NCBI RefSeq assembly: GCF_000368865.1 | Contig: NZ_KB849726.1 | Location: 391,634-455,633, forward strand | From: Acinetobacter bouvetii DSM 14964 = CIP 107468 | Lineage (GTDB): Bacteria; Pseudomonadota; Gammaproteobacteria; Pseudomonadales; Moraxellaceae | Direction of reading: 5' to 3' | DNA length: 64,000 nucleotides | Shown: positions 25,460-48,469 of the stretch, piece by piece | Position numbering within the stretch: position 1 is the stretch's first letter | Layout of the letters: the number at the start of each line of letters is the position of its first letter | Translations under genes and position numbers: made by a program | The notes under the pieces: model-generated | Database searches by the model: none | What the model was told of the DNA's origin: nothing | What the model saw: the letters and a program-made list of their open reading frames with translations, nothing else

Positions 25460-27976
25460 TTACCAATTATACTTTACACCTACTTGAAAGTTAGCTGGTG
25501 CTCCATAGTAACTATTTAAAGTCGATAAATGATATTTCTCATTCAATAGATTATTTACATTTAAATTTGCTGTGAGATTTTCATTGATTTTATAGCGCGC
25601 CATTAAATCAACTATGCCATAGCTCCCTTGTTCTGATTTAAATGAATTAGTACGCGTGACATATGTGTAAATATCACTTTGCCAACGGATTCCTGCACCT
25701 ATGGTGAGCGCTTCATCTAACTGAGGCAATGTATATGTCGTAAATAATTTAGCTGTATTGTTAGGCACATCACTATTTAGGCTGTCACCTTTGCTGTCTT
25801 GGGAAAGATTGCGTGTAAAGCTTGCTGAAAGCTGCCATAAATCAGTAATTTTCCCTGTAGCTTCTAACTCAATCCCACGGCTTTTTGTACCTGATTCAGC
25901 ACGATATGGAGATACTTTTTGTCCATTAGGCAGCGTAATTTGCGGTGCGCCAGTAATTAAAATAGCTTTATTATCTTCTTTGGTTTGATAGATGGCTGCA
26001 CCGATGTTTAACTGATTATCAAAAAATTCACCTTTAATACCAATTTCAGTACTATTGCCAATCAATGGATCGATAAAATTCCCGCTAAGATCATATTTAT
26101 CTTGTGGAGAGAAAATAGTTGTATAGCTGGTGTAGGCTGTCCAATTTGGAGTGAAATCGTATGTTAATCCAATATAAGGAATGATTTCTTTTTCTTCTTG
26201 TTTTTTATTTGTCGCAGTGCCGCCGGTTTCCGGATTGGTTTTTGAAATTCGTTCCCAATCATCAAACCGGGCACCGATAATCATGGCGAGCGGGTCACTC
26301 AGTTTTAAGCGGGCAGCAGTAAATGCGGAGAGGCTTTTTTCATCGGTACTATACCAGCCATTGGTTTTTAAATCCGGTTTAGCTGGCGTATAGCCATCCC
26401 AAGCAAAAATATTATCTATTGGAATGGTATCCCAACCAGTTGAGTTAGGGCGCTTATTTTTGCTTTTGGCATACGTTGTTCCAACCACAACGTCATGCGT
26501 TTGATTAAATAAATCAAATGAGCCATTCAGTGTTAAATTAAATAAATCTTGGGTGGGTTTATAGTCCCAGCGTGTTCCATAAAGCACGCTGCCAGCGCCA
26601 GTTGCTTTATTTATTCCTGAACCGGAAAATACATAGCCGACAATTTCATCAGAAGAGGTAATGGTGCGGGATGCAACGCCCTTTATTTTCCAGCGGTCAT
26701 TAAGCTGATGTTCAATATCAGCAAAATAGCCAGTTGTAGATCGGTCGGATGTTGACCAATTTGCCGCGGCTGAATCAGACCGTGACCAATCGATAGGTGT
26801 TCCATCTGTGTAATACGTTGGTAAACCGCTGCGGGCAATGCCATCTATATCAATTTGTTGATAGCTAACACCAAGGCTGGCTTTGGTATTATCATTTAAA
26901 TCGGCTTCAACAACCCCGTAAGCGACTTTGCGTTCCTCGCTGTAACGGTCTATATATGAATCGCCTGTCTGATATGCAAAGACTGTACGTCCACGGATTG
27001 TGCCTTCTTTATTGAGTGGGGTGGATATATCAAGATCGGTGCGGTAAGTATCCCATGAACCAGCACTTGCACTGACAGAAGCTTTAAAATCTTCTAATGG
27101 CTTCTTTCGTACCATATTGATACTGGCACTGGCTGTGCCTGCGCCGGTCATTAATCCATTTGCTCCACGAACAATTTCAACGCGATCAAAAAGAGCTGTG
27201 TCTTGGCTTTGAAAAATACTTGAATATGAGTTGAGTAGTTTTATGCCATCTAGTAAGTAACTGTCTACAGTTTGACCGCGTGCATAAATTGGAGAATTGT
27301 CTGAGCCGATATTGCCCCCTTGTTTAATGGTTAATCCTGCGGCTTGATTGGCGACATCCATAAGCTGAGTAAGATTTTGATCTTCCATTTGCTGTCGTGT
27401 GACCACACTGACTAATTGTGGCGTTTCTTTTAATGACAGGGCTAAACCTGTAGAGGCTGCTGTTGCCTTAGTTGTATATGAATTGGTTCCTTCCGTCGTT
27501 AAGGGGCTTTCCTCATTTGCAGTGACTATAATTGCGGGTAATTGCGTTATTTCATGGGCGGAAGCATTCGTATCTTGAGATGTTGCGCTTGCTTGAGTTG
27601 TGCTGAGTTGGGGATGCTGAGTTTCACTGGCTGCTGTATGAAGAGGTTTAATGCTGAAGCCGCCGTTTTCAAGTTTAATGGCTTCTAAATTCGCTGGCTG
27701 TAATAAAATTCTTAAAGCTTGTTCAGGAGAATATTGCCCCTGTAAGCCCTGACTGTTTATTTTTGAAAATGCTTGAGCATCATAGCTAATCGTTATTCCT
27801 GTTTGAATAGCAAGCTGTTTTAACGCTTGATCGAGTGTGCTTTTTTTTACGGTGATACTCTGTGCGGCAGCGGCATAGCCATTGGTTGAGAGTAGTCCAA
27901 CTGTAAGTGCCGGAGCTCCTAATAAAACTGCTCGAATCGCAATAGCTAATGTGGTTTTGACCTGAAATTTTGACAT
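25460..27976 (-). CDS. TonB-dependent ferri-siderophore receptor with N-terminal signalling (STN) domain
   Basis: The 838-aa outer-membrane transducer is of FpvA/FecA type. A long signal peptide (about residues 1-37, ending GYAAAA) is followed by an STN domain (about 40-115: SITVKKSTLDQALKQLAIQTGITISYDA). A Ser/Thr/Gln-rich linker leads to the TonB box/plug (about 145-290, LSLKETPQLVSVVTRQQMEDQ). The 22-strand barrel ends in FQVGVKYNW. The STN domain, plus the fecR- and fecI-like genes just upstream on the same strand, shows a cell-surface signalling system: ligand binding activates the sigma factor through the anti-sigma protein. The siderophore is unknown. Its 158-bp gap from the fecR-like gene may contain the sigma-dependent promoter. 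Confidence 0.95.
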   Translation of the reverse strand: MSKFQVKTTLAIAIRAVLLGAPALTVGLLSTNGYAAAAQSITVKKSTLDQALKQLAIQTGITISYDAQAFSKINSQGLQGQYSPEQALRILLQPANLEAIKLENGGFSIKPLHTAASETQHPQLSTTQASATSQDTNASAHEITQLPAIIVTANEESPLTTEGTNSYTTKATAASTGLALSLKETPQLVSVVTRQQMEDQNLTQLMDVANQAAGLTIKQGGNIGSDNSPIYARGQTVDSYLLDGIKLLNSYSSIFQSQDTALFDRVEIVRGANGLMTGAGTASASINMVRKKPLEDFKASVSASAGSWDTYRTDLDISTPLNKEGTIRGRTVFAYQTGDSYIDRYSEERKVAYGVVEADLNDNTKASLGVSYQQIDIDGIARSGLPTYYTDGTPIDWSRSDSAAANWSTSDRSTTGYFADIEHQLNDRWKIKGVASRTITSSDEIVGYVFSGSGINKATGAGSVLYGTRWDYKPTQDLFNLTLNGSFDLFNQTHDVVVGTTYAKSKNKRPNSTGWDTIPIDNIFAWDGYTPAKPDLKTNGWYSTDEKSLSAFTAARLKLSDPLAMIIGARFDDWERISKTNPETGGTATNKKQEEKEIIPYIGLTYDFTPNWTAYTSYTTIFSPQDKYDLSGNFIDPLIGNSTEIGIKGEFFDNQLNIGAAIYQTKEDNKAILITGAPQITLPNGQKVSPYRAESGTKSRGIELEATGKITDLWQLSASFTRNLSQDSKGDSLNSDVPNNTAKLFTTYTLPQLDEALTIGAGIRWQSDIYTYVTRTNSFKSEQGSYGIVDLMARYKINENLTANLNVNNLLNEKYHLSTLNSYYGAPANFQVGVKYNW

Positions 27977-28135
27977 AAAATTTGCATCTGAAAGTATGTT
28001 TACCTATAAGTCGAATAAAAAAGAAAAAGAGCTCATATTTTTAGTGCAAGTTATTTTGGCCCGCTCGAATATCTGCAGAATATTATTATTGCAGAGGCTT
28101 ATCACCATTCGCTGAAGAGCAATTAAAAACTCGAA

Positions 28136-29089
28136 TTATGACTTTTTAATATGAAGTATATATGGGCTATAAAACTCTAAATTAAGACTGTTTGCATGAG
28201 CGATAGCCTCAAGGCTTTGATCAATGTGCACCAAAGAAAACACGCCCGAAATTTGAATATTTTCAATACTGGGGTCTATAAAATAGGTGCCTTGCTGGTA
28301 ACGGTATAATTCGTGTAAAACCTTTTTGAGAGGCCAGTTTTCAACGACTAATAAATGTTGAGTCCAATATGGCTGATCATTTTTTAAAGGGATCGCGTTA
28401 GATATCTGTTGAGCATTAAAAACAGCGCGAAATCCTTGTTTGATTATTTTTTCTTTTGCAGGCCCAGCGGAATGAATGGCTACAGCATGTTCATAAACAT
28501 TTAATTTAGTTTTTTTCTTTTCTTGCCGTACAGTAAATTGGGTGCCTAAGGCTTCCAAGTCACCATTTGAAGTACTCACAAAGAAAGGGCGTTTATAAGG
28601 GTCTTTAGCAGTTTTTATATAAATTTCACCGGCAATCAGTTTAATTTTCCGTGATTGCTTTGTGTATTCGACATTGATATAGCTATTGCTGGCAAGGACA
28701 AGTTGAGAGCCGTCTTCCAAAGGAATATTCCTAATTTCACCAATATCGGTGTGATAGTCAGCTTGCCATTTTGACCAAGGCAACTGATATAAAAAAAAGG
28801 TGAGTGTGAACAGGCCAATTAAGCTCAATAAAGTATTGTTTTTTAATGTCTGATGAAATTCATTCTTTGAACGGGCAAAAGATTGATGGCTTAAATTTGC
28901 CGGCAGTTCATTGAGTCCGGAGATGATTTTTTGGACCTGCTCAATGGCCAGTGTATTTTCCGATTTTTGATTTTTCCATTGTTCAAATTGCTGATACTGT
29001 TCATCACTAACTTCTCCAGAGTGCAAAATCACCAGCCAATCAGTTGCTTCATCTAAAACGTGTTTGGACAGTTTTTCTGGAGTTGTCAT
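28136..29089 (-). CDS. FecR-family anti-sigma/sigma regulator
   Basis: The 317-aa protein has an N-terminal cytoplasmic domain (about residues 1-60, DEATDWLVILHSGEVSDEQYQQFEQW, DUF4880 type). One transmembrane helix lies near residues 92-112 (LIGLFTLTFFLYQ). A periplasmic FecR domain (about 120-230, DIGEIRNIPLEDGSQLVLASNS) precedes a C-terminal STN-interacting part. It relays receptor occupancy to the FecI-like sigma factor across the inner membrane. It starts 14 bp after the sigma gene stop, so the two are co-transcribed. Confidence 0.94.
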   Translation of the reverse strand: MTTPEKLSKHVLDEATDWLVILHSGEVSDEQYQQFEQWKNQKSENTLAIEQVQKIISGLNELPANLSHQSFARSKNEFHQTLKNNTLLSLIGLFTLTFFLYQLPWSKWQADYHTDIGEIRNIPLEDGSQLVLASNSYINVEYTKQSRKIKLIAGEIYIKTAKDPYKRPFFVSTSNGDLEALGTQFTVRQEKKKTKLNVYEHAVAIHSAGPAKEKIIKQGFRAVFNAQQISNAIPLKNDQPYWTQHLLVVENWPLKKVLHELYRYQQGTYFIDPSIENIQISGVFSLVHIDQSLEAIAHANSLNLEFYSPYILHIKKS

Positions 29090-29103
29090 ATGTGAATGAT
29101 AAA

Positions 29104-29616
29104 TTACTGTTGTTGAAGGCTGATACAGGCAAGAAAAGCGAGTTTCATGTCCCGTTTTACGGTGGCTTCAGAAATATTCAGCTGCGCACAAATGCCTTTA
29201 TAGGTTAAGCCATCGAGTTGAGATAATAAAAAAACTTGTGCTGCACGCGCGGGTAATTTTTCCAAGACTTTATGGACTTGAAATAATGTTTCACGAATGC
29301 AGATTTCATGTTCAACAGATGGATAAAACTCAGCAGGTAATTGGGCCAGTGCCTCTAAATATAAGCGTTCCACTTGTTGATGACGCCAATGGTCAATAAT
29401 GACATGTTTGGCAATGCCAAGTAGCCATGCTTTGGGTTCCTTAATATTTTCATGTTGATAATGGCTTTTCAGGGCGCGATAAAAGACTTCCTGGCTTAAG
29501 TCTTCAGATTGATGATGATGCTGAAGTTTGTGCTTAAACCAGGAGAGCAACGTTGTTTGGTGTGTTTGATAAACATGGCTGAACCATAACTGCTTATGTA
29601 CATTTAAATTCATCAA
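29104..29616 (-). CDS. ECF sigma factor, FecI type
   Basis: The 170-aa protein contains sigma region 2 (about residues 15-85: HHHQSEDLSQEVFYRAL, and EPKAWLLGIAKHVIIDHWR) and region 4 (about 110-165: LEKLPARAAQVFLLSQLDGLTYKGICAQLNISEATVKRDM). This is the iron-starvation ECF subgroup. It should direct RNA polymerase to the receptor promoter when the FecR-like partner is activated. The start is upstream-bounded by a control region with a strong Fur box at 29690-29708. A second Met immediately follows the first; either may be used. Confidence 0.94.
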   Translation of the reverse strand: MMNLNVHKQLWFSHVYQTHQTTLLSWFKHKLQHHHQSEDLSQEVFYRALKSHYQHENIKEPKAWLLGIAKHVIIDHWRHQQVERLYLEALAQLPAEFYPSVEHEICIRETLFQVHKVLEKLPARAAQVFLLSQLDGLTYKGICAQLNISEATVKRDMKLAFLACISLQQQ

Positions 29617-29683
29617 ATAGCCTTAAAACAGAATCAATCAAATCCAAATTCTAGAAAGAAATAGATTTCAATAAAAATATTCG

Positions 29684-29712
29684 TTGAATCTTAATGATAA
29701 TCATTATTAAAT
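29684..29712 (+). promoter_or_regulatory. Fur box inside a divergent promoter region
   Basis: Bases 29690-29708 (CTTAATGATAATCATTATT) match 16 of 19 positions of the Fur consensus. On the plus strand TTGAAT (29684-29689) and TTAAAT (29707-29712) are 17 bp apart, so the Fur box fills the promoter spacer. It also lies 74 bp upstream of the divergent sigma-factor gene, so Fur probably represses both directions when iron is sufficient. Confidence 0.8.
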
Positions 29713-29830
29713 GCAATATTATTATTTACACAAAGTAACATCTTTTTTGAGCTGTTTATTCATCTCATCCGTCTAAGTAGATAACGATGCGTAATCGCTG
29801 TATTACGCTTGCAATGTTAGTGGTCTAGTC

Positions 29831-30142
29831 ATGAAATCCCTTTCTTTTCAGTTCAACACTCAAAATCACCATCGATTTATTGTTTTTATACGTATTCTGC
29901 TTGCTTCATTAGGCGGTTTTGCTGCAGCAAATTTAACGGTTGCTATGGTTGGGTTGCTCTTTCCAAATCAGCTTGCAATCGCTACATATACCGGTTTTTT
30001 GATTAGCTTCATTGTTTGGTTAGTGTTCATCTTGACTGTATTCAGTATAAAAAGCACTTTAAAAACGGTTTGCTTATCCATCGGTCTGTTATTTAGCCTT
30101 GGGTGTATCGTCAGCGCACTAAAAATTTGGGGAAGCATATGA
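29831..30142 (+). CDS. small iron-uptake-associated membrane protein (DUF3649 type)
   Basis: The 103-aa protein has three hydrophobic helices (IRILLASLGGFAAANLTVAMVGL, FLISFIVWLVFILTVFS, TVCLSIGLLFSLGCIVSAL). Size, the GGFAAANL motif and its place directly before a PepSY-type gene match the DUF3649 proteins that accompany siderophore receptors in proteobacteria. Their function is not established. It overlaps the next gene by 4 bp (ATGA), so translation is coupled. Expression is probably Fur-controlled from the promoter at 29684-29712. Confidence 0.8.
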   Translation: MKSLSFQFNTQNHHRFIVFIRILLASLGGFAAANLTVAMVGLLFPNQLAIATYTGFLISFIVWLVFILTVFSIKSTLKTVCLSIGLLFSLGCIVSALKIWGSI

Positions 30143-31836
30143 AAGAGGGCTTCCGCCAAAGCATGGCTTGGCTGCATACATGGACAGGTTTGGTCGTTGG
30201 CTGGATCTTATTTTTTGTCTTTTTAACAGGTACAGCAGGCTATGTGCAAATTGAACTGACACGATGGATGCAGCCTGAAAAAGCATTGCAGTCCAATGTT
30301 ATTGTTCCTGAAAATGAGCAGCTGGATAAAGCTTATCATTATTTAAAAAATAATCCTGACGCGCAAAAAGCCGAACGCTGGGGAGTGAATCTGCTAACCA
30401 ATCAGCGTGGTGCAGATGACTTCGCTGTCAATTGGACTTTGCCACCCAAAGAAGAAGGGAAACGGGGTAAATATAATAAAGAAGTGCTTGATGTTTCATC
30501 AGGGCAACCTGTTTCTGAGCAAATTCAGCCTCGTGAAACGGGTGGCGGTTTTACGCTTTATCGTATGCATTATGCGCTGCATTATATTCCTTATGATTGG
30601 GGCATTCGGATCGTGGGCATTTGCACCATGTTCATGTTTGTTGCCATCATTTCGGGCATCATCACCCATAAAAAAATATTTAAAGATTTCTTTACGTTTA
30701 GACCCGCCAAAGGCCAGCGGTCCTGGTTAGATGCACACAATGTGATTAGTGTGATTGCTTTGCCGTTTTATATCATGATCACGTATAGCGGTTTAATTTT
30801 CTTTGCCAATGCTTATATGCCTTTGGGTGTTCCAATGGTTTATGGTTCGGGAGAGAAAAATACAGAACGCTATTATGCTGAACTTTACCCAACGAACTCT
30901 CGTTTTAATAAGGATGATTCTGCTGTTCCGCCAGCCATGGGTGAAATCCAGCAGAAATTCGTTCCTATTCAGCCTTTACTTGTAAAAGTTCAAAGTGAAT
31001 GGGGCGGATCACAAAAAATCAGTCAGGTAAATTTTTATCCTGATCAAGGTAAAACTCCTGCAAAAATTGAATTTTACCAAACTGGCAGCGATACGATTGC
31101 AAGAAAACGCACATCTTTAAGTTTTGATTTATATACAGGTCAAAAGATTGTTCAGGAAAAGTCCAATGAAGATAAGGCGCCGATGGTCTTTGGTACAACT
31201 GTATTAGGGCTGCATGAAGGCTTATTTGCATCGTCATTTGCACGTATCTTATATGTGCTGACAGGGCTTTTAGGCACAGCCATGATTGCAACTGGCTTGG
31301 TGCTGTGGACCGTTAAACGCCGGCCAAAACAATTAAAGTCAAAGCGAATGAGTTTTGGTCATGCCTTGGTTGAGCGCCTAAATATTGCCATGATTGCAGG
31401 TTTACCATTGGCAATAGCTGTGTATTTCTGGGCAAATCGACTGATTCCTGCCGATTTCGCTAACCGTGCCAATTGGGAAGTGCATTGTTTATATATCACC
31501 TTATTATTCAGCTTCCTCTATGCATTAAGCAGGCCGATTGTCCGTGCTTGGATTGAGATATTGGCTTTTGCTGCTTTGGCTTATTTATTGTTGCCTATCC
31601 TCAACTTTGTTACGACAGATCGCCACTTAGGCGTATCACTTTCACACCAAGACTTTGCATTAGCCAGTATTGATCTGGGATTTATTTTCCTTGGAATCAT
31701 GTTTGCATGGGCAAGTTACCGTGTGTGGTGCAAGCGGGATTCTATTTTAAAACCTGTTGTTAAAAAAAACAAAAAACCACGTGTTTCTCCGGCAGATGAT
31801 GTGATTGAAGTTCCGCGGTCAGAGGAATTGTCATGA
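30139..31836 (+). CDS. PepSY-domain inner-membrane protein, putative ferri-siderophore reductase
   Basis: The 565-aa start at 30139 has GGGGAAG upstream; an earlier start would lie within the previous gene. The layout is typical of the PepSY_TM family. An N-terminal helix with the conserved WLHTWTGLVVGW is followed by a large periplasmic part with RMHYALHYIP and a second helix region. A second periplasmic PepSY segment leads to LGLHEGLFA and three or four C-terminal helices. Conserved histidines in these helices could bind haem. FpvG of the Pseudomonas pyoverdine system belongs to this family and reduces ferri-siderophore in the periplasm; the same role is inferred here. It overlaps both neighbours by 4 bp. 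Confidence 0.85.
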   Translation: MKEGFRQSMAWLHTWTGLVVGWILFFVFLTGTAGYVQIELTRWMQPEKALQSNVIVPENEQLDKAYHYLKNNPDAQKAERWGVNLLTNQRGADDFAVNWTLPPKEEGKRGKYNKEVLDVSSGQPVSEQIQPRETGGGFTLYRMHYALHYIPYDWGIRIVGICTMFMFVAIISGIITHKKIFKDFFTFRPAKGQRSWLDAHNVISVIALPFYIMITYSGLIFFANAYMPLGVPMVYGSGEKNTERYYAELYPTNSRFNKDDSAVPPAMGEIQQKFVPIQPLLVKVQSEWGGSQKISQVNFYPDQGKTPAKIEFYQTGSDTIARKRTSLSFDLYTGQKIVQEKSNEDKAPMVFGTTVLGLHEGLFASSFARILYVLTGLLGTAMIATGLVLWTVKRRPKQLKSKRMSFGHALVERLNIAMIAGLPLAIAVYFWANRLIPADFANRANWEVHCLYITLLFSFLYALSRPIVRAWIEILAFAALAYLLLPILNFVTTDRHLGVSLSHQDFALASIDLGFIFLGIMFAWASYRVWCKRDSILKPVVKKNKKPRVSPADDVIEVPRSEELS

Positions 31837-32180
31837 GCATAGTGTCGATCAATATTTTAACCGCAATATTTTTGAGCTATATCGGTTTATTTGCTTTAAA
31901 TCTTTCCATGGAACGCAATGCAAAACTGGTTTTGAAAGCGCCGTTATCTTTAAAAAAAATCCAAATACTTAAAGTCTTTGGATGGATGTTTTTAGCACTT
32001 TCATTATTTCACAGCATTTTAGCGTGGGGTGTTTCGATCGGGATAACCGCATGGTTTGGCGTCATCACACTGATTGCTGGCGCAATCGTGTTTATTCAAT
32101 CTTATCAAGCAAAGTTGAATTTGAATTTATCAAGCATGGCTTTTTTTATTGTGATTGGATTGCAATTTTTTCGACTGTAA
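31833..32180 (+). CDS. small membrane protein (DUF3325 type)
   Basis: The 115-aa protein has three or four helices and motifs SYIGLFALNLSMERN and LSLFHSILAWGVSIGITAWFG, matching the DUF3325 proteins that follow PepSY genes in siderophore loci. Function is unknown; it may be a partner subunit of the PepSY reductase. It starts within the stop of the PepSY gene (ATGA) and ends 13 bp before the RND adaptor gene, tying the iron genes and the pump into one transcript. Confidence 0.8.
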   Translation: MSIVSINILTAIFLSYIGLFALNLSMERNAKLVLKAPLSLKKIQILKVFGWMFLALSLFHSILAWGVSIGITAWFGVITLIAGAIVFIQSYQAKLNLNLSSMAFFIVIGLQFFRL

Positions 32181-32193
32181 ATGAGTGAGTTTT

Positions 32194-33402
32194 ATGAGTA
32201 ATCAAAATATAGATGTAGCGAAAAAACGCAATTCATTGGGTCGAAAACTGAAATATGTGATTGGATTTTCTATCTTCATTTTGCTGATTATTGGGGGAAT
32301 ATATTGGAAAAAGACTTCAAATCAACCGAAAGAAGAGTATAGCCAGTGGAGTAAGCCTGTTCCAGTACGTGCAGTGCCTGTACAGCGCAGCAATTTAGAT
32401 GTTGAAATTAAAGCCATTGGTACGGTTGTTCCAGTGCATACGGTAAATGTGCAAAGTCAGGTTTCTGGCGTGCTGCAACAGGTTTATTTCAAAGAAGGGC
32501 AATGGGTCAAAAAAGGGCAGCTATTGGCTCAGATAGACCCTGCTCCATTTGCAGTGGCTTTGGCGCAAGCTGAAGGAACTAGACATCAAAATCTTGCGCA
32601 ATTAAACAATGCGGAAACTGAACTTGCACGTTATCAATTGCTGTTTAAGCAAGACTCTATTGCTAAACAGCAAGTTGAACAGCAGCAGGCTTTGGTGAAT
32701 CAGCTGAAAGGGCAAACGCAATCTAATCGTGCGCAGGTCGATGCTGCAAAATTGCAATTGTCCTATACCAAAATTTATTCACCTATTGATGGCCGTGCCG
32801 GCTTTAAGCAAAAAGATGCAGGCAACTTGATTCAGGCCAATGAAAGCACAGCTTTAGTGACCATCACGCAAGTTCATCCTGTTTATGTGCAGTTTGCCGT
32901 TGCAGAAAGCCATCTAGCAGGATTACGTGAAACTTTAAAATCTGGTCATCAAGTACAAGTCAGTGCATGGGATAAAGCAGAGCAAAAACAGCTTGCAGTG
33001 GGGCATGTGCAGGCTTTGGACAATCAAATTGATATCAGTACAGGCACTTTAAAGTTAAAAGCGGTGTTTGATAATCGTGATGACAGCTTATTTCCAAATC
33101 AATTTGTCAATGTGCGCTTAAGTGCGCAGACCATTCAAAATGCCGTCAGTATTCCAAGTGACGCTGTTCAGCATGGGGCAAAAGGCACCTATGTTTACGT
33201 CATCAATAAAGACCATAAAGCTGAGATCAGAAGCCTAAAATTAGGTTTAAGCAGCAATGGTCAGATTGAAGTTTTAGCAGGCTTAAACGGCACTGAAAAA
33301 GTGGTGCTTGAGGGGATTGATCGTCTTTCAGAAGGCAAAGAAGTTCAAATTATTGCTGATGATCAACCGCATCTCCCTGTAACGGAATCTGCTGCTGGAT
33401 AA
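32194..33402 (+). CDS. RND periplasmic adaptor (MdtA-like membrane-fusion protein)
   Basis: The protein is about 402 aa. An N-terminal anchor helix (about residues 25-45) is followed by a lipoyl/barrel-sandwich half motif VNVQSQVSGVLQQVYFKEGQWVKKGQLLAQIDP. An alpha-hairpin (about 125-195) is rich in Gln/Ala. The second lipoyl half is IYSPIDGRAGFKQKDAGNLIQ, then beta-barrel and membrane-proximal domains. It links the inner-membrane RND pumps at 33406-39614 to the outer-membrane factor at 39623. GAGTGAG precedes the ATG at 32194; a GTG three codons earlier is an alternative. Confidence 0.93.
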   Translation: MSNQNIDVAKKRNSLGRKLKYVIGFSIFILLIIGGIYWKKTSNQPKEEYSQWSKPVPVRAVPVQRSNLDVEIKAIGTVVPVHTVNVQSQVSGVLQQVYFKEGQWVKKGQLLAQIDPAPFAVALAQAEGTRHQNLAQLNNAETELARYQLLFKQDSIAKQQVEQQQALVNQLKGQTQSNRAQVDAAKLQLSYTKIYSPIDGRAGFKQKDAGNLIQANESTALVTITQVHPVYVQFAVAESHLAGLRETLKSGHQVQVSAWDKAEQKQLAVGHVQALDNQIDISTGTLKLKAVFDNRDDSLFPNQFVNVRLSAQTIQNAVSIPSDAVQHGAKGTYVYVINKDHKAEIRSLKLGLSSNGQIEVLAGLNGTEKVVLEGIDRLSEGKEVQIIADDQPHLPVTESAAG

Positions 33403-33405
33403 ATC

Positions 33406-36400
33406 ATGAATATTTCACGGTTCTTTATTGTACGTCCAGTCGCAACAACGCTGCTGATGCTCGCGTTGCTGTTTAGCGGTCTGCTGGCTTGGCGAATGCT
33501 TCCAGTCTCTGCTTTGCCGCAAGTCGATTATCCGATTATTCAGGTGTATACCTTTCAGCCGGGGGCAAATCCAGATACGGTACAGCGAACCATTACAGCA
33601 CCACTTGAACATGAAATGGGGAAAATTGCCGGCTTAAAGCAAATGTCATCCAACAGTTCGGTGGGGGCATCGGTCATTACCTTGCAGTTTGATCTCAGTG
33701 CTGAACTGGGCGTGGTGGAGCAAGAAGTTCAGTCTTCATTAAGCACTGCCAGCAGTAAATTACCCAATGATTTACCCACACCGCCGATTTACCGCAAAGT
33801 CAACCCTGCTGATGTACCTGTTATCACCCTAGCGATTAGCTCAGAAACATTACCTTTAACCACTGTGTATGACATGGTGGATACTCGCGTTGCGCAAAAG
33901 TTGTCGCAGCTGACGGGTGTTGGCATGGTGAGTCTCGCAGGCGGTCAGCGGCCAGCAATCCGTGTGCAAATGAATCCGGCTGCACTGGCAAGTTATAAAA
34001 TGAGTGCGGAAGATGTGCGATCTGCCATTAATTCTGCCAATGCCAATCAGCCGAAAGGCAGTTTTGACGGGCCATTTCGGACCACCATGCTGGATGCCAA
34101 TGATCAAATTCGTTCAATTGCAGATTATGAAGCTTTAATTCTCCGCTGGAATAATGGCGCGCCCATTCGCCTCAAAGATGTTGCCACCGTTATTGAGGGC
34201 AGTGAAGACCGCTATATGGCAGCATGGGCAGACAGCCAATCCGCGATTTTGGTCAATGTACAGCGCCGACCGAATGCCAATGTCATTCAGGTTGCCGATC
34301 AAATTAAACAGGCCTTACCTGAGCTGCAGCAGAATCTTCCTGAGAATGTCAAAATTCGTATTTTAACGGATCGAACTGAAAGTATCCGCAGTTCGATTCA
34401 TGATGTGCAAAAAGAACTGGTTTTTGCCGTGTGTCTGGTGGTCATGGTGACGTTTTTATTTTTAAGAAATCTCTCTGCCACGATTATTCCAAGCATTGCT
34501 GTACCGCTGTCGATTATCGGCACATTTGTTTTGATGCACTTTTTAGGTTTTTCGGTTAATAACTTGACGCTGATGGCGCTGACCATTGCCACAGGCTTTG
34601 TGGTCGATGATGCCATTGTGATGCTGGAGAACATTGCCCGACATCGAGAATCCGGTGAAAGCTTATTGCAAGCAGCCTTAAAAGGTTCACGGGAAATTGG
34701 CTTTACCCTGATTTCACTCACTGTATCGTTAATTGCCGTGCTCATTCCTTTGCTGTTTATGGGCGATGTTGTCGGGCGGTTATTCCATGAATTTGCGGTG
34801 ACTTTAGCAGCAGCCATAGCATTATCCCTCGTTGTTTCACTCACCCTGACGCCGATGATGTGTGCGTATTTGCTTAAAAATACGCAGCATGCGCCATCAC
34901 GTCGCCGATGGAGCTTGGATTGGGTCATTCAGCAATATGGCAAAGGCTTAGAATGGGTATTTAAACATCAAACTTTTACTTTGGCGGTGATGTTGAGTAC
35001 GGTCATTTTGGCTGGTGTCATGTATTGGATGATTCCTAAAGGCTTTTTTCCAGTACAAGACAGTGGTGTGATTCAAGTGGTGACAGAAGCGCCTGATGAT
35101 ATTTCGTTCCAAGCCATGAGTGAGCGTCAGCAAGCCTTGGCGCAGCAAATTTTAAAAGACCCCGCGGTTGAAAGCTTGTCTTCATTCATTGGCATTGATG
35201 CCAATAATCCAAAACTCAGCAATGGCCGAATTCTTATTAACCTTAAACCGTATGCTGAACGTGATAGTGCATCGCAAGTGATGACTCGTTTACGAGAGGA
35301 GTTTGATCAGGTCAAAGGCATTCAAGGCTGGATGCAGCCTGTGCAAGAGTTGAGTATTGAAGACAAAATCAGCCGAACACAATATCAACTGAGCCTTACT
35401 GCAACGCGCAGTGCAGATTTAGAGCAATGGACACCTGTTTTGGTAGATGCTTTACGCAAAAAAGCTGAATTTGCCGATGTCACCAGTGATGGCGGCGGAT
35501 TGGGCTTGCAGGCATTTATTGATGTCAATCGCGATGCAGCGGCACGTTTAGATTTAAGTATTGAAGATATCAGTTTGGCTTTGCAAAATTTATTTGCTCA
35601 GCGGCAAATTGCCACTTTATACACGCAGTCGAATCAATACCGCATCGTGTTAGAACTTGCACCTGAGTCAACACAAGACTTTGATGCTCTGGCCCAAACT
35701 TATATTCATAACAGTAACGGCGAACCGATTCTACTCAGTTCCGTGGCAACCATTGTACAAAAGCGTGTCCCGATCCTCTTGCAGCAACAGTCACAATTCC
35801 CCGCCAATGGCGTGTCATTTAATTTGGCACAGGGCGTAGCATTGGGTGATGCAATTAAGGTGATCCATCAAGTGGAACAGCAACTCAATTTACCGATTGA
35901 TGTCAAAGTGAAGTTGCAAGGTGCTGCAGCAGCATATGAAAATTCGAAACAACATACATTCTGGTTAGTGATTGCAGCCATTGTCACCATGTACATCGTG
36001 TTGGGAATCTTGTACGAAAGCTTTATTCACCCAATTACCATTCTTTCTACATTACCTTCTGCGGCCATTGGCGCTTTGCTTGCCTTGTTTATGGTCAATC
36101 GGCCATTAGACATGATTGCTTTGATTGGCATTATCTTGCTGATTGGTTTGGTGAAGAAAAACGGCATCATGATGGTGGACTTTGCATTGGCTGCTCAGCG
36201 CAATGAAGGTCTATCGCCGCAACAAGCCATTTATCAAGCGGCGTTAATGCGTTTCCGTCCTATTTTAATGACCACTTTAGCGGCATTGGTGGGAGCAATT
36301 CCCTTGATGTTGGCATCGGGTGCAGGGGCAGAACTGAGACAACCGCTCGGGATTGTAATGGTCGGTGGATTATTGCTAAGTCAGATTTTGACCCTCTTTA

Positions 36401-36516
36401 CTACACCAGTGGTTTATCTGTTTTTTGACCGCTTGCAGCAATCATTTAGCCAATCAGATACAAACCGATTGGGTGTAGATACAGCCGTTGCAAATGATGC
36501 GGGGAGAGAGTCTTGA
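33406..36516 (+). CDS. RND efflux permease, MdtB-like subunit
   Basis: The 1,036-aa inner-membrane pump of the HAE-RND family has 12 transmembrane helices and two large periplasmic loops. It starts MNISRFFIVRPVATTLLMLA. Proton-relay residues are present: VDDAIVMLENI in TM4 (about residue 405) and the lysine in GLVKKNGIMMVDF in TM10. Residues around 650 (ISRTQYQLSLTATRS...) and the VNRDAAARLDLSIEDI segment resemble E. coli MdtB more than MdtC. MdtB works with MdtC as a mixed trimer, and the MdtC-like gene follows with a 4-bp overlap. MdtABC exports bile salts, novobiocin and enterobactin in E. coli; substrate here is inferred from iron context. Confidence 0.93.
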   Translation: MNISRFFIVRPVATTLLMLALLFSGLLAWRMLPVSALPQVDYPIIQVYTFQPGANPDTVQRTITAPLEHEMGKIAGLKQMSSNSSVGASVITLQFDLSAELGVVEQEVQSSLSTASSKLPNDLPTPPIYRKVNPADVPVITLAISSETLPLTTVYDMVDTRVAQKLSQLTGVGMVSLAGGQRPAIRVQMNPAALASYKMSAEDVRSAINSANANQPKGSFDGPFRTTMLDANDQIRSIADYEALILRWNNGAPIRLKDVATVIEGSEDRYMAAWADSQSAILVNVQRRPNANVIQVADQIKQALPELQQNLPENVKIRILTDRTESIRSSIHDVQKELVFAVCLVVMVTFLFLRNLSATIIPSIAVPLSIIGTFVLMHFLGFSVNNLTLMALTIATGFVVDDAIVMLENIARHRESGESLLQAALKGSREIGFTLISLTVSLIAVLIPLLFMGDVVGRLFHEFAVTLAAAIALSLVVSLTLTPMMCAYLLKNTQHAPSRRRWSLDWVIQQYGKGLEWVFKHQTFTLAVMLSTVILAGVMYWMIPKGFFPVQDSGVIQVVTEAPDDISFQAMSERQQALAQQILKDPAVESLSSFIGIDANNPKLSNGRILINLKPYAERDSASQVMTRLREEFDQVKGIQGWMQPVQELSIEDKISRTQYQLSLTATRSADLEQWTPVLVDALRKKAEFADVTSDGGGLGLQAFIDVNRDAAARLDLSIEDISLALQNLFAQRQIATLYTQSNQYRIVLELAPESTQDFDALAQTYIHNSNGEPILLSSVATIVQKRVPILLQQQSQFPANGVSFNLAQGVALGDAIKVIHQVEQQLNLPIDVKVKLQGAAAAYENSKQHTFWLVIAAIVTMYIVLGILYESFIHPITILSTLPSAAIGALLALFMVNRPLDMIALIGIILLIGLVKKNGIMMVDFALAAQRNEGLSPQQAIYQAALMRFRPILMTTLAALVGAIPLMLASGAGAELRQPLGIVMVGGLLLSQILTLFTTPVVYLFFDRLQQSFSQSDTNRLGVDTAVANDAGRES

Positions 36517-39500
36517 AATTACTCTCAGCTTTTATTCATCGGCCAGTAGCAAGTGTTTTAATTGCCATTGCCATTGTTTTATTGGGGATTTTGGCTTATT
36601 TACGTTTACCCGTTGCAGCCTTGCCTCAAGCGGATATTCCCACCATTGTGGTACGGGCAAATTTACCGGGTGCAAGCCCTGAGAGTATGTCTGCCACAGT
36701 AGCAACGCCATTGGAACGTGCCATGATGGGCGTTTCTGGGGTGAAAGCCATTAACTCGTCAAGCAGCCAAAGTTCAGCGCAAGTGGTTTTGAATTTTGAT
36801 TTGGCAACGGACATTAATGAGGCGGCCAGAGAAGTACAGGCAGCCATCAACGCTGCCATGTCGCAGTTGCCTTCAGGCATGCCAAGCCCTCCTGAATATT
36901 TTAAAGTCAATCCAAGCCAAAGCCCTATTTTTTACTTGGCATTGAGTTCACAGCATTTATCTGCAGGTAAATTGTATGAAATTGCCAGTGATTTGCTGCA
37001 GCCCAATTTGGCTCAGGTCAGTGGTGTCGGCGAGGTTTCGATTGATGGTGCTTCCATGCCTGCGGTGCGGATTATTTTAAATCCCAATGCACTGATTTCG
37101 CAGGGTGTGACGTTAGAGCAAGTGCGTGAAGCGATTGTAAAAAGCAACCGCACTCAAGCACTCGGTGTGGTTGAAAATGATCAATTACGCTGGCAAGTAG
37201 CGCTTTCGAGCAATTTAAAAACAGCTGAGGATTTTGCCAATCTCCCTGTTTATAAAAATGCGCAAACGATTGTACGTTTAAAAGATGCTGCAGAGGTTCA
37301 AGATTCAGTAGAAAACCGCTATGTCAGTGGCTTTCATAATGGTCAACCTGCGGTCATTATTAAAATCAGCCGGCAACCGAATGCCAATACGGTTGCAACC
37401 ATTGAGAAAATTAAAGAAAAACTGCCTGAATTACAGCTGATGATTCCTGAGGATGCTCAGCTTACAACCGTGATGGATGGTTCGAAAATTATTCGGGCAG
37501 GTTTGGACGAAGCACGAGATACCTTATTGCTTTCAATCCTCTTGGTGGTGATTGTTGTGGCGTTGATGCTGGGGCGAGTACAAAGCGCCTTGGTGCCTGC
37601 TGTTGCCTTAGTTGTGGTATTAATCGGTGCAAGCAGTCTGGTGTATTTGGCAGGATTCTCACTGAATAATTTGTCCATTATGGCAGTAATTGTTGCCATC
37701 GGACTTGTTGTTGATGATGCCATTGTTGTACTTGAAAATATCGAACGTCATATTGAACAAGGTGAGCAACCTGTTCAGGCGGCATTAAAAGGCAATCAGG
37801 AAGTTGGCACAACCTTAATTGCCATGAATTTGGCTTTGGTGGTGATCTTCATTTCTATCCTATTTATGGGCGGGGTGATAGAACGCCTATTTAGAGAGTT
37901 CTCATTAACCTTGGTGTTTATTGTTGTTTTATCCGTGGTGATCTCACTGATATTAACACCCAGTTTATCTGCACGTTGCCTAAAGCCATTAGCCAGTTAT
38001 CAGCATCAGGCATTGTATCAATATAGCCATCGCTGGATGCAGAAGCTGAACCAGGCTTATTTAGCATCATTAAAATGGATGCTTAAACACAGTTATCTGG
38101 CAATTTTGTTATGGATTGGGGCAATTGCGGGTTCTGCTTATATTTATCAGACTTTGCCTAAACGGGTATTGCCTGAGCAAGATACGGGGCAAGTTGATGC
38201 GTTTATTCGCGGTGATGATGGATTCTCATTTCAGATTATGCAGCCAAAAATTGCCGCCTTTAGCGAGAGTCTTCTCAAAGATCCTGCTGTGCAAAGTGTG
38301 GTGGGAACGTCTGGTGGCTCAGGCGGGACAACCAATTCATTTTTGATGGTGAGCTTAAAACCGAAAGCCGAACGCGATGGTCAAAGTGCTCATGAAGTTG
38401 TAGAGCGTTTGAAGCAAAATGCGCCGTGGCAGGCAGGGGCAATTTTTTCAGCGCGAGTCAAGCAGGAGCTTGAGCTTGATGACCCGTTTGGTGGCAGTGG
38501 GCAAGACTATATGTTGCTGCTGCAATCTGACAATGTAGCGCTGTTGCGTGAATGGGTGCCTAAAGTTGCATCGGCAATGCAAAAGCTCCCTCAGCTTGCA
38601 GAAGTTGAGTCGATGGGCGATGAAGGCGCACAGCATGTGACTTTGGATATTGACCGTGAGGCGGCTCGACGCTTGGGTGTAAATATAGAAAGCATTGCCA
38701 GTGTGCTAAATAACTCTTTTTCACAGCGTCAAATTTCAACTATTTATGATCAAACACAGCAGTTTCATGTGGTGATGGAAGTCGACAAACGCTTTACCGA
38801 ACAGCCTGAAGCTTTGGCGGATATTCGTGTACCGAACCAGCAAGGTGAGTCGGTTCCATTGAGTAATTTCGCCACATGGTCTTATGGAATTACCAATGAT
38901 CGGGTTTATCGCCGTAATCAATACGCTGCGATGGGCATTGGCTATGTGGTCAAACCAGAATATACCAATGAACAAGCCGATGCTGCGATTCGCTCAATTT
39001 TATCTGAAGTGATGGTGCCTAACGAAATCTTTATGACCAGCGATAAAGAAGCTGAAGCGCAAAGTTTGCAAAGCGGTTTAAGTACGCCTGTACTGGCTTT
39101 AGTGGTGATCTTGCTGATTTATATCGTACTGGGTGTGACTTATGAAAGCGTGGTACATCCATTTACGATTCTGTCCACCATACCTGCAGTCGCCTTAGGG
39201 GCTTTACTGACGCTTTGGACATTTGGTTTTCATTTTACCTTGATTGCCTTATTGGGAATGTTCCTTCTTATTGGCGTGGTGGTGAAAAATGCCATTCTGC
39301 TTATTGATTTCACTTTGATGGAAAGGCGAGCAGGAAAATCAGCCTATCAAGCAGTCGTGTCTGCTGCTGAACTTCGTTTTAGACCCATCTTAATGACCAA
39401 TACCGCAGCATTATTAGGCGCTGTTCCATTGGCACTCAGTTGGGGAGAAGGGGCTGAATTGCGTCAGCCTTTAGGTGTAGTCATTGTCGGCGGTTTGGCG

Positions 39501-39614
39501 CTTGGGCAATTACTCACCTTATATACCACGCCGGTGTTGTATTTGGTTTTAGAAAAATGCGCTGAATTTTTCAGAAGATCGAAAAATGTGCATGCAATTG
39601 ATTTAGGTAAATAG
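36513..39614 (+). CDS. RND efflux permease, MdtC-like subunit
   Basis: The 1,033-aa protein is the second RND subunit. It begins at a TTG that overlaps the stop of the previous gene (TTGA), giving MKLLSAFIHRPVASVLIAIA, the expected N-terminus. TM4 has VDDAIVVLENIERH and TM10 has GVVVKNAILLIDF, so the proton relay looks intact. The periplasmic part contains FSQRQISTIYDQTQQFHVVMEVD, which is closest to E. coli MdtC. A Gly-rich insertion (GTSGGSGGTTNS near residue 600, and DPFGGSGQDY near 660) is not obvious in MdtB. The rare start codon plus overlap suggests coupled, balanced synthesis of the two subunits. Confidence 0.93.
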   Translation: MKLLSAFIHRPVASVLIAIAIVLLGILAYLRLPVAALPQADIPTIVVRANLPGASPESMSATVATPLERAMMGVSGVKAINSSSSQSSAQVVLNFDLATDINEAAREVQAAINAAMSQLPSGMPSPPEYFKVNPSQSPIFYLALSSQHLSAGKLYEIASDLLQPNLAQVSGVGEVSIDGASMPAVRIILNPNALISQGVTLEQVREAIVKSNRTQALGVVENDQLRWQVALSSNLKTAEDFANLPVYKNAQTIVRLKDAAEVQDSVENRYVSGFHNGQPAVIIKISRQPNANTVATIEKIKEKLPELQLMIPEDAQLTTVMDGSKIIRAGLDEARDTLLLSILLVVIVVALMLGRVQSALVPAVALVVVLIGASSLVYLAGFSLNNLSIMAVIVAIGLVVDDAIVVLENIERHIEQGEQPVQAALKGNQEVGTTLIAMNLALVVIFISILFMGGVIERLFREFSLTLVFIVVLSVVISLILTPSLSARCLKPLASYQHQALYQYSHRWMQKLNQAYLASLKWMLKHSYLAILLWIGAIAGSAYIYQTLPKRVLPEQDTGQVDAFIRGDDGFSFQIMQPKIAAFSESLLKDPAVQSVVGTSGGSGGTTNSFLMVSLKPKAERDGQSAHEVVERLKQNAPWQAGAIFSARVKQELELDDPFGGSGQDYMLLLQSDNVALLREWVPKVASAMQKLPQLAEVESMGDEGAQHVTLDIDREAARRLGVNIESIASVLNNSFSQRQISTIYDQTQQFHVVMEVDKRFTEQPEALADIRVPNQQGESVPLSNFATWSYGITNDRVYRRNQYAAMGIGYVVKPEYTNEQADAAIRSILSEVMVPNEIFMTSDKEAEAQSLQSGLSTPVLALVVILLIYIVLGVTYESVVHPFTILSTIPAVALGALLTLWTFGFHFTLIALLGMFLLIGVVVKNAILLIDFTLMERRAGKSAYQAVVSAAELRFRPILMTNTAALLGAVPLALSWGEGAELRQPLGVVIVGGLALGQLLTLYTTPVLYLVLEKCAEFFRRSKNVHAIDLGK

Positions 39615-39622
39615 GAAATAAG

Positions 39623-41023
39623 ATGCAGAGTTTAATATGTAAAAATGTGATGAGCCTAAGCTGCATGCTCATTTTAACTGCGTGCAGTTCGCATGTAGTA
39701 CTGCAGCCACCTGAATATAAGATTCCGATTGTGCAAGCAGATGATCAGTACAAATATGCAGATTTAAACTGGACACCAACCTCGGCAATAAAAATTTCAG
39801 CTGAACAATGGTGGAATATTTATCAAGATCCTGTTTTAAGCCAATTGATGCAGCAATTGAATCAAGAAAATTTAACCTTAAAGCAAGCCGAAGCACGTTA
39901 TCAGCAAGCGCAGGCTTTGCTTGAAGTACAGCGTGCCAATCGCGTACCCAATATCACAGCAAATGGTGCTGCAAATCGTAATGGCGCAAAAAATACCTCA
40001 GCAAGTAGCCAATTTGGATTGGGTGTACAAGCCAGTTGGGTACCTGATATCTGGGGACGGGTAGCAAAGGCCATTGAAGGGCAGCAAGCCAATCTAGTAG
40101 CCAATCAGGCCGATTTAGATGCAGTTAAATTAAATCAGCAATTGTTGGCCACAGACGCTTATTGGAATATTCGTGTACTGGATGCACAGTCTGATGTACT
40201 GCAGCAAACCCAAAAAAGTTATCTGCGTTCGGTTCAAATCTTAAAGAATCAATACAATGCAGGCATGATTGCTCGCGCAGATGTCATACAGGCAGAAACG
40301 CAATTAAAGCAGGTGCAAATTCAACGGATTGAAACCACCCGAGATCGCAATTTACAAGAAAATATTTTGGCGGTGCTGCAAGGTAAAAGTGTTGCTCAGT
40401 TTCAATTGACTAAACAGAAGCAGGCATTGACCGTTCCACAGATCCCTGCTCAGCTTCCAAGCCGATTATTAATCCAGCGTCCTGATGTTATTCGCGCAGA
40501 GCGGGAATTGGCCATGACGCATGCTGAACTGGGTTTAGCGCAAACTGCATGGCTGCCTGATATTACGATAGGTTTAAATGGCAGTTTAAACAGTCAAATT
40601 TTGGGGCATTTGTTCTTATCGCCGCAATACTTATGGTCTACAGGTTTACAAGCGGCTGCCATTGTTTTTGATGGCGGTAAACGAGAAGCGGAAATTGCTC
40701 AGGTTCAAGCCAATTACGATGAAAAATTAGCAGCCTATAAGCAGTCGATATTAACAGGCTGGAAAGATGTCGAAGATGCGTTGCTGCAGGCATCCAGTTT
40801 TAAACAGCAGCAAACTGAACAAGCAAAACTCTTTGCGCTGGCAACCGAGAATGAACAAGCAGCAACTCGGCGTTATAGCGCAGGCTTAGTGAGTTATTTA
40901 GAAGTGGTTACTGCTCAAAATTTAAGATTGCAGGCTGAGCAAACGACTTTGCAATTGCAACTTTCTCAAATGAACAATACAGCACAATTGATTGCCGCAT
41001 TGGGTGGAAATATTCGAATGTAA
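39623..41023 (+). CDS. outer-membrane efflux lipoprotein (NodT/TolC-type)
   Basis: The 466-aa protein has a lipoprotein signal with lipobox LTAC near residue 21. Two repeats of the outer-membrane factor helical barrel follow (about residues 60-260 and 270-460), with WWNIYQDPVLSQLMQQLNQENLTLKQAEARYQQA and QRPDVIRAERELAMTHAELGLAQTAWLPDI. It completes a tripartite pump with the adaptor and the two RND subunits and starts 9 bp after the second pump gene. Having a dedicated outer-membrane factor differs from E. coli mdtABC, which borrows TolC. Confidence 0.93.
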   Translation: MQSLICKNVMSLSCMLILTACSSHVVLQPPEYKIPIVQADDQYKYADLNWTPTSAIKISAEQWWNIYQDPVLSQLMQQLNQENLTLKQAEARYQQAQALLEVQRANRVPNITANGAANRNGAKNTSASSQFGLGVQASWVPDIWGRVAKAIEGQQANLVANQADLDAVKLNQQLLATDAYWNIRVLDAQSDVLQQTQKSYLRSVQILKNQYNAGMIARADVIQAETQLKQVQIQRIETTRDRNLQENILAVLQGKSVAQFQLTKQKQALTVPQIPAQLPSRLLIQRPDVIRAERELAMTHAELGLAQTAWLPDITIGLNGSLNSQILGHLFLSPQYLWSTGLQAAAIVFDGGKREAEIAQVQANYDEKLAAYKQSILTGWKDVEDALLQASSFKQQQTEQAKLFALATENEQAATRRYSAGLVSYLEVVTAQNLRLQAEQTTLQLQLSQMNNTAQLIAALGGNIRM

Positions 41024-41044: not shown

Positions 41045-41479
41045 ATGTATAGGTTTTATTTGTTTGAAAAGGCACTCAATATTTTACTGGAATTGGGATA
41101 TTTCATTTTGTTAAATAATGAAAAGCAACAGCAATCAATACAGCAGCTTATCGTTGATATTTTGGATGAAAATTTAGAAGGATTGGCTGTAGATCAATTA
41201 TATATCCAGCTCAATTTGATTAAATCTTGCAGTCTTGCGAGCGTTTACAGAATCTTGTCAGAGATGCGGAGATTAGGAGTCGTTCGAAAAACTGAATTTG
41301 CTCGCCAAAAGGCTGTCTATACAATGTCAAAGCAAAAGTTAAAGTGCAGTGTGAGTGATGCATATAGCAATGAGGTATTGCCTTGCAGTAATCAAGAATT
41401 GATTATGGATTTTGAACAATTATTTGATAAATATAAGAATGAGTTTTCTGGCATCGATATTGTTTTATATAAAAAATAA
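41045..41479 (+). CDS. Fur-like winged-helix protein lacking metal ligands
   Basis: The protein is about 144 aa. Residues about 30-95 follow the Fur fold: QLIVDILDENLEGLAVDQLYIQLNL, then CSLASVYRILSEMRRLGVVRKTE and KAVYTM, which aligns with the Fur recognition helix (ATVYR...L...G). The C-terminal half, where Fur has His-rich metal sites, has not one histidine; two cysteines remain (LKCSV and LPCSN) where Fur has its CxxC region. DNA binding without iron sensing is the inference. The start is uncertain: ATG at 41045 or TTG at 41039, with no good ribosome site. It follows the efflux operon in the same direction. It could be a decaying copy. Confidence 0.6.
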   Translation: MYRFYLFEKALNILLELGYFILLNNEKQQQSIQQLIVDILDENLEGLAVDQLYIQLNLIKSCSLASVYRILSEMRRLGVVRKTEFARQKAVYTMSKQKLKCSVSDAYSNEVLPCSNQELIMDFEQLFDKYKNEFSGIDIVLYKK

Positions 41480-43144: not shown

Positions 43145-43149
43145 CTGAA

Positions 43150-48468: not shown

Positions 48469-48469
48469 A

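Follow-up and report, generated by a model that had tools for sequence, protein, structure and literature searches.

In a 64,000-nucleotide stretch of the Acinetobacter bouvetii DSM 14964 = CIP 107468 genome (contig NZ_KB849726.1, positions 391,634 to 455,633; hereafter the window, in whose numbering all coordinates are given), genes for a TonB-dependent siderophore receptor and its FecI/FecR signalling partners diverge from an operon encoding a PepSY_TM protein, two small membrane proteins and an MdtABC-like RND pump with its own outer-membrane channel. This receptor-PepSY-pump arrangement is more than a chance neighbourhood and recurs across the genus. The explanation that we favour, with slightly better than even confidence, is capture of a siderophore, reduction of its iron in the periplasm and release of the ligand by the pump. 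The locus would be an iron-repressed capture-and-release system, in which the FauA/FhuE/FpvA-type receptor would bring the loaded, probably foreign, siderophore into the periplasm, while its STN domain, acting through FecR and FecI, would increase expression of the receptor. The PepSY_TM protein and its two small membrane partners would reduce the siderophore iron in the periplasm, so that the iron comes off; ferrous iron would enter by an importer encoded elsewhere (two proteins in the host genome match FeoB_C), and the pump would send the ligand back to the medium through its own channel.

The gene content, gene order, conservation, Fur box, FoxB fold predicted for the PepSY protein and absence of FecCD permeases above cut-off from the host are read from sequence; the reductase activity, the signalling, the identity of the substrate and the emptied ligand as the main cargo of the pump are what we infer. 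An earlier note on this DNA had proposed a self-contained system of siderophore uptake, periplasmic reduction and RND re-export. Its pathway gains support from the co-occurrence of the genes in relatives, the upstream Fur box, the FoxB fold and the lack of FecCD permeases above cut-off, whereas "self-contained" was too strong, because the ferrous-iron importer, TonB and the electron donor are all outside the locus.

The ten genes given in that note, with their coordinates, are open frames at 25460-41023, and profiles back all of their names but one (DUF3649, see below). Three are on the reverse strand: the receptor (25460-27976), with Pfam STN, Plug and barrel matches; a FecR-type anti-sigma factor or signal transducer (28136-29089; Pfam FecR and DUF4880, NCBIfam FecR at 231 bits, below its cut-off); and a FecI-type ECF sigma factor (29104-29616; Pfam Sigma70_r2 and r4_2, NCBIfam FecI at 133 bits, below its cut-off). 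By Pfam, these adjacent genes for an ECF sigma factor, FecR and an STN-bearing receptor make up a cell-surface signalling set of the FecI/FecR/FecA type. The receptor falls in the FauA/FhuE/FpvA/FptA group, with NCBIfam scores of 560 bits for FauA and 532 bits for FhuE, both below the cut-offs, and FauA (3efm), FhuE (6e4v) and FpvA (5odw) as its nearest solved chains. FauA is the alcaligin receptor and FpvA the pyoverdine receptor.

Seven close-packed genes follow on the forward strand. The first encodes a small membrane protein (29831-30142) with 16 aligned orthologues; the name DUF3649, previously attached to it, was abandoned, as the DUF3649 Pfam model matches none of the 16. Next come the genes for the PepSY_TM protein (30139-31836), which has the FoxB fold in a structure model and is likely a heme-dependent ferrisiderophore reductase, and for a small membrane protein of the DUF3325 family (31833-32180; PF11804, 70 bits). 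The pump proper consists of a MdtA/MuxA-like periplasmic adaptor (32185-33402; NCBIfam MdtA/MuxA at 354 bits with a cut-off of 391, RND_mfp above its cut-off), a MdtB/MuxB-like permease (33406-36516; NCBIfam MdtB/MuxB at 1459 bits with a cut-off of 1584, RND_permease_2 above its cut-off) and a MdtC-like permease (36513-39614; Pfam ACR_tran, NCBIfam MdtC at 1062 bits with a cut-off of 1774). All three equivalog cut-offs are missed, those of MdtA and MdtB narrowly and that of MdtC widely, but these are the best-scoring families of the three proteins, which places the pump with MdtABC/MuxABC. The nearest solved chain of the MdtB-like permease is MdtB (9lyq), and the MdtC-like permease retains the DD motif of the fourth transmembrane segment. 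The last gene encodes a NodT-type outer-membrane channel (39623-41023; PF02321, TIGR01845 above cut-off); a channel within the operon is the arrangement of MuxABC-OpmB. The tight linkage described earlier is confirmed: ATGA overlaps join the PepSY gene (ATG at 30139) and the DUF3325 gene to their predecessors, a TTGA overlap joins the two permease genes, and the remaining gaps are of 4 (DUF3325 to adaptor), 3 (adaptor to MdtB-like permease) and 8 bases (MdtC-like permease to channel).

Conservation of the locus and of its Fur boxes

Among 175 Acinetobacter genomes, host included, the MdtB-like permease has matches at E 1e-200 in 54. A group of 39 among these comprises the host and, with identities of 72-97%, 38 relatives. 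The window proteins served as BLAST queries to map each of the 39 loci; in 30 of them, FecI and receptor genes adjoin the pump operon. Three forms can be distinguished. In form 1 (16 of 39 loci, as in the window), the PepSY trio, that is, the PepSY gene and the two small membrane protein genes, is joined to the pump; 15 of these loci are contiguous and one (G081) is split by contig ends between the DUF3325 and adaptor genes, and 14 of the 16 have divergent FecI, FecR and receptor genes (G075 and G016 lack divergent FecI and FecR). In form 2 (another 16 loci), the receptor and FecI genes are directly divergent from a pump without a joined trio, and FecR was not found in one of these loci (G030). 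Directly beside 11 form-2 loci lies another PepSY gene (40-41% identity), and in eight cases a 944-amino-acid open reading frame (ORF) comes before it; in the locus checked (L052), this ORF is a TonB-dependent receptor by profile. Form 3 is the pump alone (seven loci; the one in G007 stops at a contig end). The conserved co-occurrence of receptor, PepSY trio and MdtABC-like genes, which the earlier note had set as its main test, is thus borne out.

In a tree of 68 MdtB sequences, built with a quick method that gave long-branch warnings, the 39 permeases form one clade with full support (SH-aLRT 100), and some forks within the tree are open. The earliest-branching members of this clade have form 1, which suggests that the joined arrangement came first and that forms 2 and 3 arose by loss. 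The gene junctions are conserved as well: 14 of 15 relatives' loci retain the 4-nucleotide PepSY/DUF3325 overlap, and 14 of 14 retain that between MdtB and MdtC. Among 30 receptors beside the pump in relatives, 27 have the STN domain, as scored with a profile from eight receptors, of which the 30 include seven. The exceptions are G016, which lacks FecI and FecR; G030, where FecR was not found and the STN match is weak (E 7.7e-5); and G132, which has a split receptor ORF. This pattern agrees with a functional signalling set whose parts decay together. Canonical MdtABC loci of the genus (52-55% identity) differ: the nine fetched, out of 17 divergent loci, have no FecI, FecR, receptor, PepSY or DUF3325 neighbours.

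Between the divergent gene sets of the window lies a Fur box, CTTAATGATAATCATTATT (29690-29708, no strand assigned), that matches 16 of 19 positions of the consensus and is the sole match of at least 16/19 in the 64 kb. Its position upstream of the pump operon, noted earlier, holds, and the site appears to be conserved in relatives. When the best match in the 300 bases upstream was recorded for each locus and compared with shuffles that preserved single-base content only, the scores were 14-16/19 in all 15 form-1 relatives, 13-16/19 in the 16 form-2 loci and 13-16/19 in the seven form-3 loci, in five of which the Fur-like site is at -170. Three form-2 and three form-3 loci, at 13/19, are not much above the shuffles (24-43 of 200). 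By contrast, the nine canonical MdtABC loci reach 10-12/19, which is the shuffle level. On this sequence evidence, Fur boxes mark the pumps of the clade and not ordinary MdtABC, and these pumps are predicted members of the Fur regulon.

The search was extended to the bacterial order, where MdtABC relatives are present in 47 of 390 genomes at E 1e-290, host included. The 20 loci fetched from the other 46 (56-67% identity; L192 is cut by a contig end) gave no match to FecI, FecR, receptor, PepSY or DUF3325, and a Fur-like site of 13-14/19 precedes 5 of the 19 tested. PepSY loci outside the genus were approached through the best 80 of at least 582 confirmed; some of these 80 loci are short. In this set, the two Acinetobacter loci carry the RND pump, and none of the 78 named loci from outside Acinetobacter has a MdtBC-like pair beside PepSY (L138 and L187 show remote RND matches of about 25% only). 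Many Pseudomonas loci in the set resemble the window in having receptor, FecR and FecI genes divergent from PepSY in the same orientation, and differ from it in lacking a MdtBC-like pump.

A different pump is found in Acidovorax (L121, L125, L126) and Candidatus Accumulibacter (L153), where the FecI, receptor and PepSY genes are followed in the same orientation by genes for an adaptor, a channel and a Fur-family protein, with a MacB-like protein after the adaptor where profiled (L126 and L153). Adaptor and channel matches beside PepSY were obtained by BLAST in these four loci and in L183; profiles confirm MacA and MacB only in L126 and L153 and the channel only in L125, and the MacB profile check covered neither L121 nor L183. 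The Fur-family gene is detected by profile in L121 and L153 and by BLAST in L125 and L126, and FecR was unmatched by BLAST in L121, L125 and L126. PvdRT is a pump of the MacAB kind. Among the independent hints that the pump is part of the siderophore pathway, the presence of two pump families behind a receptor and a putative reductase is the best.

Candidate reductase and route of iron

The PepSY protein matches PF03929 (PepSY_TM) at 211 bits, with a cut-off of 28.8. Its AlphaFold model (mean predicted local distance difference test score 81.9, predicted TM-score 0.82) was compared by Foldseek with 350,542 chains, and FoxB, represented by two chains of 7abw, was the sole PDB entry at E<=0.001 (E 1.3e-8, probability 1.00). 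FoxB also ranks top of all entries on superposition with VIA-align (Z 12.8, 317 residues aligned), in a match that is not close (root-mean-square deviation 8.0, TM-scores 0.34/0.49). A PDB sequence search with the PepSY alignment gave no match at E 0.01. Five histidines are invariant in the 42-row PepSY alignment (25, 156, 189, 212 and 371, in the 577-amino-acid frame from 30103), and three of these, H25, H156 and H371, align with histidines of FoxB in a weak HMMER alignment. Passages of PMC10866019, PMC13001220 and PMC13038864 name FoxB, FhuB and FsrB as known or likely reductases of ferrisiderophores, FpvG as a probable one and HiuB as a proposed one. Given the modelled fold, the PepSY protein is likely a heme-dependent enzyme of this type. 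The same passages describe HiuC as a small membrane partner required for ferrioxamine use, and, by analogy, the DUF3325 protein and the product of the first gene may be small membrane partners of the reductase. A copper-reductase reading, modelled on CrpH as it appears in a passage of PMC13038864, was rejected, since the Fur box and FecI/FecR favour iron.

The earlier observation that no inner-membrane siderophore importer accompanies these genes can be extended, for the ABC type, to the whole host genome (99.97% complete), which has no FecCD permease above cut-off; single-subunit, MFS-type importers were not searched for. The one weak FecCD match in the host is ZnuB-like and has a Fur-family regulator and an ABC ATPase as neighbours (names by reading). 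Among the form-1 genomes, 9 of 16 (G000, G106, G174, G119, G149, G042, G075, G112 and G016) lack a FecCD permease at E 1e-10, with the same restriction as to single-subunit importers.

Source of the siderophore and cargo of the pump

In six of the 16 form-1 genomes (G016, G042, G070, G075, G112 and G149), both IucA/IucC (E 1e-30) and condensation domains (E 1e-20) are absent, so that a self-made siderophore of the nonribosomal peptide synthetase (NRPS) or NRPS-independent siderophore (NIS) type would not be the cargo there; this favours foreign siderophores. In the host, IucA/IucC is not found at E 1e-30, and the single condensation protein lies within a catecholate cluster of the 2,3-dihydroxybenzoate (DHB)/VibH type on another contig (C3, L088:13040 to L089:9618). 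This cluster includes another receptor, a PepSY protein and a MFS-like gene. In NCBIfam, its EntC-type protein and receptor (TIGR01783) score above subfamily cut-offs and EntA and EntE just below theirs, and the names SIP, EntB and MFS were assigned by reading, with no NCBIfam match. In the genus, VibH is present in 14 of 175 genomes, with variable neighbours. Among the 12 other VibH regions fetched, the receptor of the host cluster is closely matched in four, and G103 has a FecI-FecR-receptor set instead; the MFS-like gene is unmatched in all 12, where unlabelled ORFs may be exporters.

Closely related loci differ in their receptors in a specific manner. In four form-2 pairs (L063/L064, L066/L068, L065/L070 and L072/L071), the first 100 alignment columns of the receptor, covering the signal peptide and STN domain, are 86-96% identical, and the plug and barrel about 20-45%, while the other proteins remain similar (FecI 94-99%, adaptor and permeases 94-97%, FecR 84-90%, channel 83-92%). 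A weaker swap is seen in the joined-form pair L044/L045 (STN 72-82%, MdtB 97%, PepSY 88%), and in the joined-form pair L039/L040 the receptors are 39% identical overall, STN included (PepSY 89%, MdtB 96%). The pair L035/L036 (G174 and G119) shows the opposite, with the barrel at 72-90%, the STN domain at 28-58%, and FecI and pump 99% identical. A reductase and a pump that each handle several siderophores would lead one to expect just this, a change of the barrel while the rest stays. We tentatively extend this to a machine that catches, strips and releases foreign siderophores, with a lasting set of STN domain, FecR, FecI, FoxB-type reductase and broad-substrate RND pump behind exchangeable barrels, a reading to which we give clearly less than an even chance. 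It was weighed slightly lower because the four cleanest pairs are form-2 loci, in which it is the pump that stays, not a joined PepSY protein.

The candidates for the cargo of the pump, all unproven, are the empty ligand, the loaded siderophore, as with Bradyrhizobium japonicum ExsFGH, and a self-made siderophore. That the pump secretes a self-made siderophore beside its receptor and reductase, in the host the catecholate of the C3 cluster, is unlikely in our judgement. MdtABC-type pumps do take part in enterobactin and pyoverdine secretion, according to a passage of PMC10715066, and VibH is found in 5 of 16 joined-form against 9 of 159 other genomes, counts from related genomes that are not independent. 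In G119, a full DHB/VibH cluster (SIP-VibH-EntA-EntC-EntE-EntB-decarboxylase; L090:12162-19097, L036:20-1186) lies about 1 kb from the receptor gene, at the place where the host C3 cluster has its other receptor, PepSY protein and MFS-like gene. However, with those genes the C3 cluster possesses its own equipment, including a 25% identical PepSY relative; G149 retains the locus without VibH; the receptor is nearest to FauA, FhuE and FpvA; and the six genomes without NIS and condensation genes have the joined form all the same. The foreign-siderophore reading is weighed higher.

We consider it quite unlikely that the pump serves instead as a safety valve, ridding the periplasm of ferric siderophores and siderophore antibiotics when uptake outruns reduction. 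For this there is a direct precedent that combines a PepSY-type reductase with an RND pump: in B. japonicum, ExsFGH clears the periplasm of ferrichrome and ferrioxamine in their ferric forms and so works against the reductase FsrB (PMC10760861), and the swapped receptor barrels would suit a broad-substrate pump too. Yet no common operon is predicted for exsF, exsG and exsH (PMC10760861), whereas here reductase and pump are in one run behind one Fur box, and a pump produced together with the reductase would, as a weak argument, suit the product of that enzyme over its substrate. Very unlikely, in our view, is an ordinary multidrug MdtABC pump that fell under iron control and has no siderophore task. 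Membership in the MdtB/MuxB family and the seven pumps without receptor or PepSY genes would agree with it, but those seven keep Fur-like sites of 13-16/19 (three near the shuffle level), unlike the nine canonical loci, the association with receptor and PepSY sits on the deepest branches of the clade, and in other bacteria a MacAB-type pump adjoins receptor and PepSY genes.

Several observations weigh against capture, reduction and ligand release as the function of the locus. The sequence similarity between the PepSY protein and FoxB is weak (E 0.47, single-sequence search), and for ExsFGH, which is the nearest precedent to have been tested, the authors concluded that the ferric form is exported (PMC10760861). 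The genes also occur apart: 7 of 39 pumps stand without FecI/FecR or the trio, DUF3325 has matches in 60 of 175 genomes, the PepSY-DUF3325 pair is without a pump in four of five weak-match loci fetched (L049, L050, L051 and L053), and the channel gene is absent behind MdtC in G070, G076 and G077. Among the 16 joined-form genomes, seven carry at least one FecCD permease and ten carry some condensation or NIS gene; in addition, there is the G119 catecholate cluster next to the receptor gene.

Neighbouring genes, known systems and implications

Behind the channel gene, the window encodes a Fur-family protein (41045-41479, forward strand; PF01475 at 34.3 bits, cut-off 23.1; the longest ORF starts with TTG at 41039) that the earlier gene list omitted. 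It has a Fur-like helix-turn-helix region, and no histidine cluster is visible in its sequence. As such a gene follows the channel in 2 of 16 joined-form loci, those of the window and G149 (a 63% relative in L037), it is non-core. A tRNA-Ser gene (23985-24074) is about 1.4 kb from the receptor gene, and the neighbours of the locus differ among relatives, so that a tRNA-linked insertion is possible. A plasmid origin was rejected: 29600-41023 has no megablast match in 72,556 plasmid records. Two further export clusters lie downstream, one (43132-49597) with an outer-membrane channel, a HlyD-type adaptor, a 918-amino-acid ABC protein that combines two ATPase stretches with an ABC2 permease part, and an ABC2 permease, and the other (58168-63926) a full RND set of outer-membrane channel, HlyD-type adaptor and 1052-amino-acid ACR_tran permease.

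The locus appears to be a variation on known siderophore uptake and recycling systems, with parts, regulation and a likely pathway supported and the cargo unproven. As far as a passage of PMC10866019 describes it, the FpvA/FpvG/PvdRT-OpmQ system of Pseudomonas aeruginosa shares the receptor group, a PepSY protein, periplasmic release of iron and a tripartite ligand pump, and it has binding proteins and the FpvDE ABC transporter, whereas the Acinetobacter locus contains no binding-protein or ABC gene. PvdRT-OpmQ is of the ABC type, whereas the pump here is of the RND type and in one gene run with PepSY; the earlier note had proposed an RND-based analogue of pyoverdine recycling. The note had also linked the pump to siderophores through enterobactin export, and there are two precedents that it did not cite. 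One is MdtABC-OpmB of Pseudomonas putida, which, together with Escherichia coli MdtABC, has an adaptor and two permeases of the same families; a passage of PMC10715066 gives the former a part in pyoverdine secretion and MdtABC one in enterobactin secretion. Compared with canonical MdtABC, the present pump has its own branch and Fur boxes, and no receptor or PepSY gene is found beside the nine canonical Acinetobacter loci compared. The other is B. japonicum, in which FsrB and ExsFGH likewise bring a ferrisiderophore reductase and an RND pump to bear on periplasmic xenosiderophores, with FeoB downstream, but there exsFG and exsH are apart and include one RND permease gene, in contrast to the single run and MdtB/MdtC pair here (PMC10760861).

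The hiuABC genes of Caulobacter crescentus and FoxA/FoxB of P. aeruginosa resemble the locus in receptor and PepSY protein, and hiuABC also in a small membrane protein and Fur regulation; in the relevant passage of PMC13001220, hiuABC is a three-gene operon without a pump. Passages of two further papers place SmeYZ, SmeDEF and the ABC-type SbiAB of Stenotrophomonas maltophilia in stenobactin secretion (PMC9241820) and, in a low-iron array study of Acinetobacter baumannii, group a receptor, a PepSY protein and a MFS exporter in one siderophore cluster (PMC3055841). Searches of an open-licence PMC library listed no study of the present locus.

Recent papers leave open the fate of a foreign siderophore once its iron has been removed in the periplasm. 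As receptor, candidate reductase and pump adjoin one another at a single Fur box here, one strain would be enough to address this. If the locus does catch, strip and release foreign siderophores, it would answer where the emptied xenosiderophores go; a cell that makes no siderophore could then use that of a neighbour as its shuttle, and the MacAB set of Acidovorax and Accumulibacter would mean that two pump families have been built in separately. The locus would also indicate an environmental selective force on MdtABC-type pumps and may bear on Trojan-horse antibiotics that enter through siderophore receptors.

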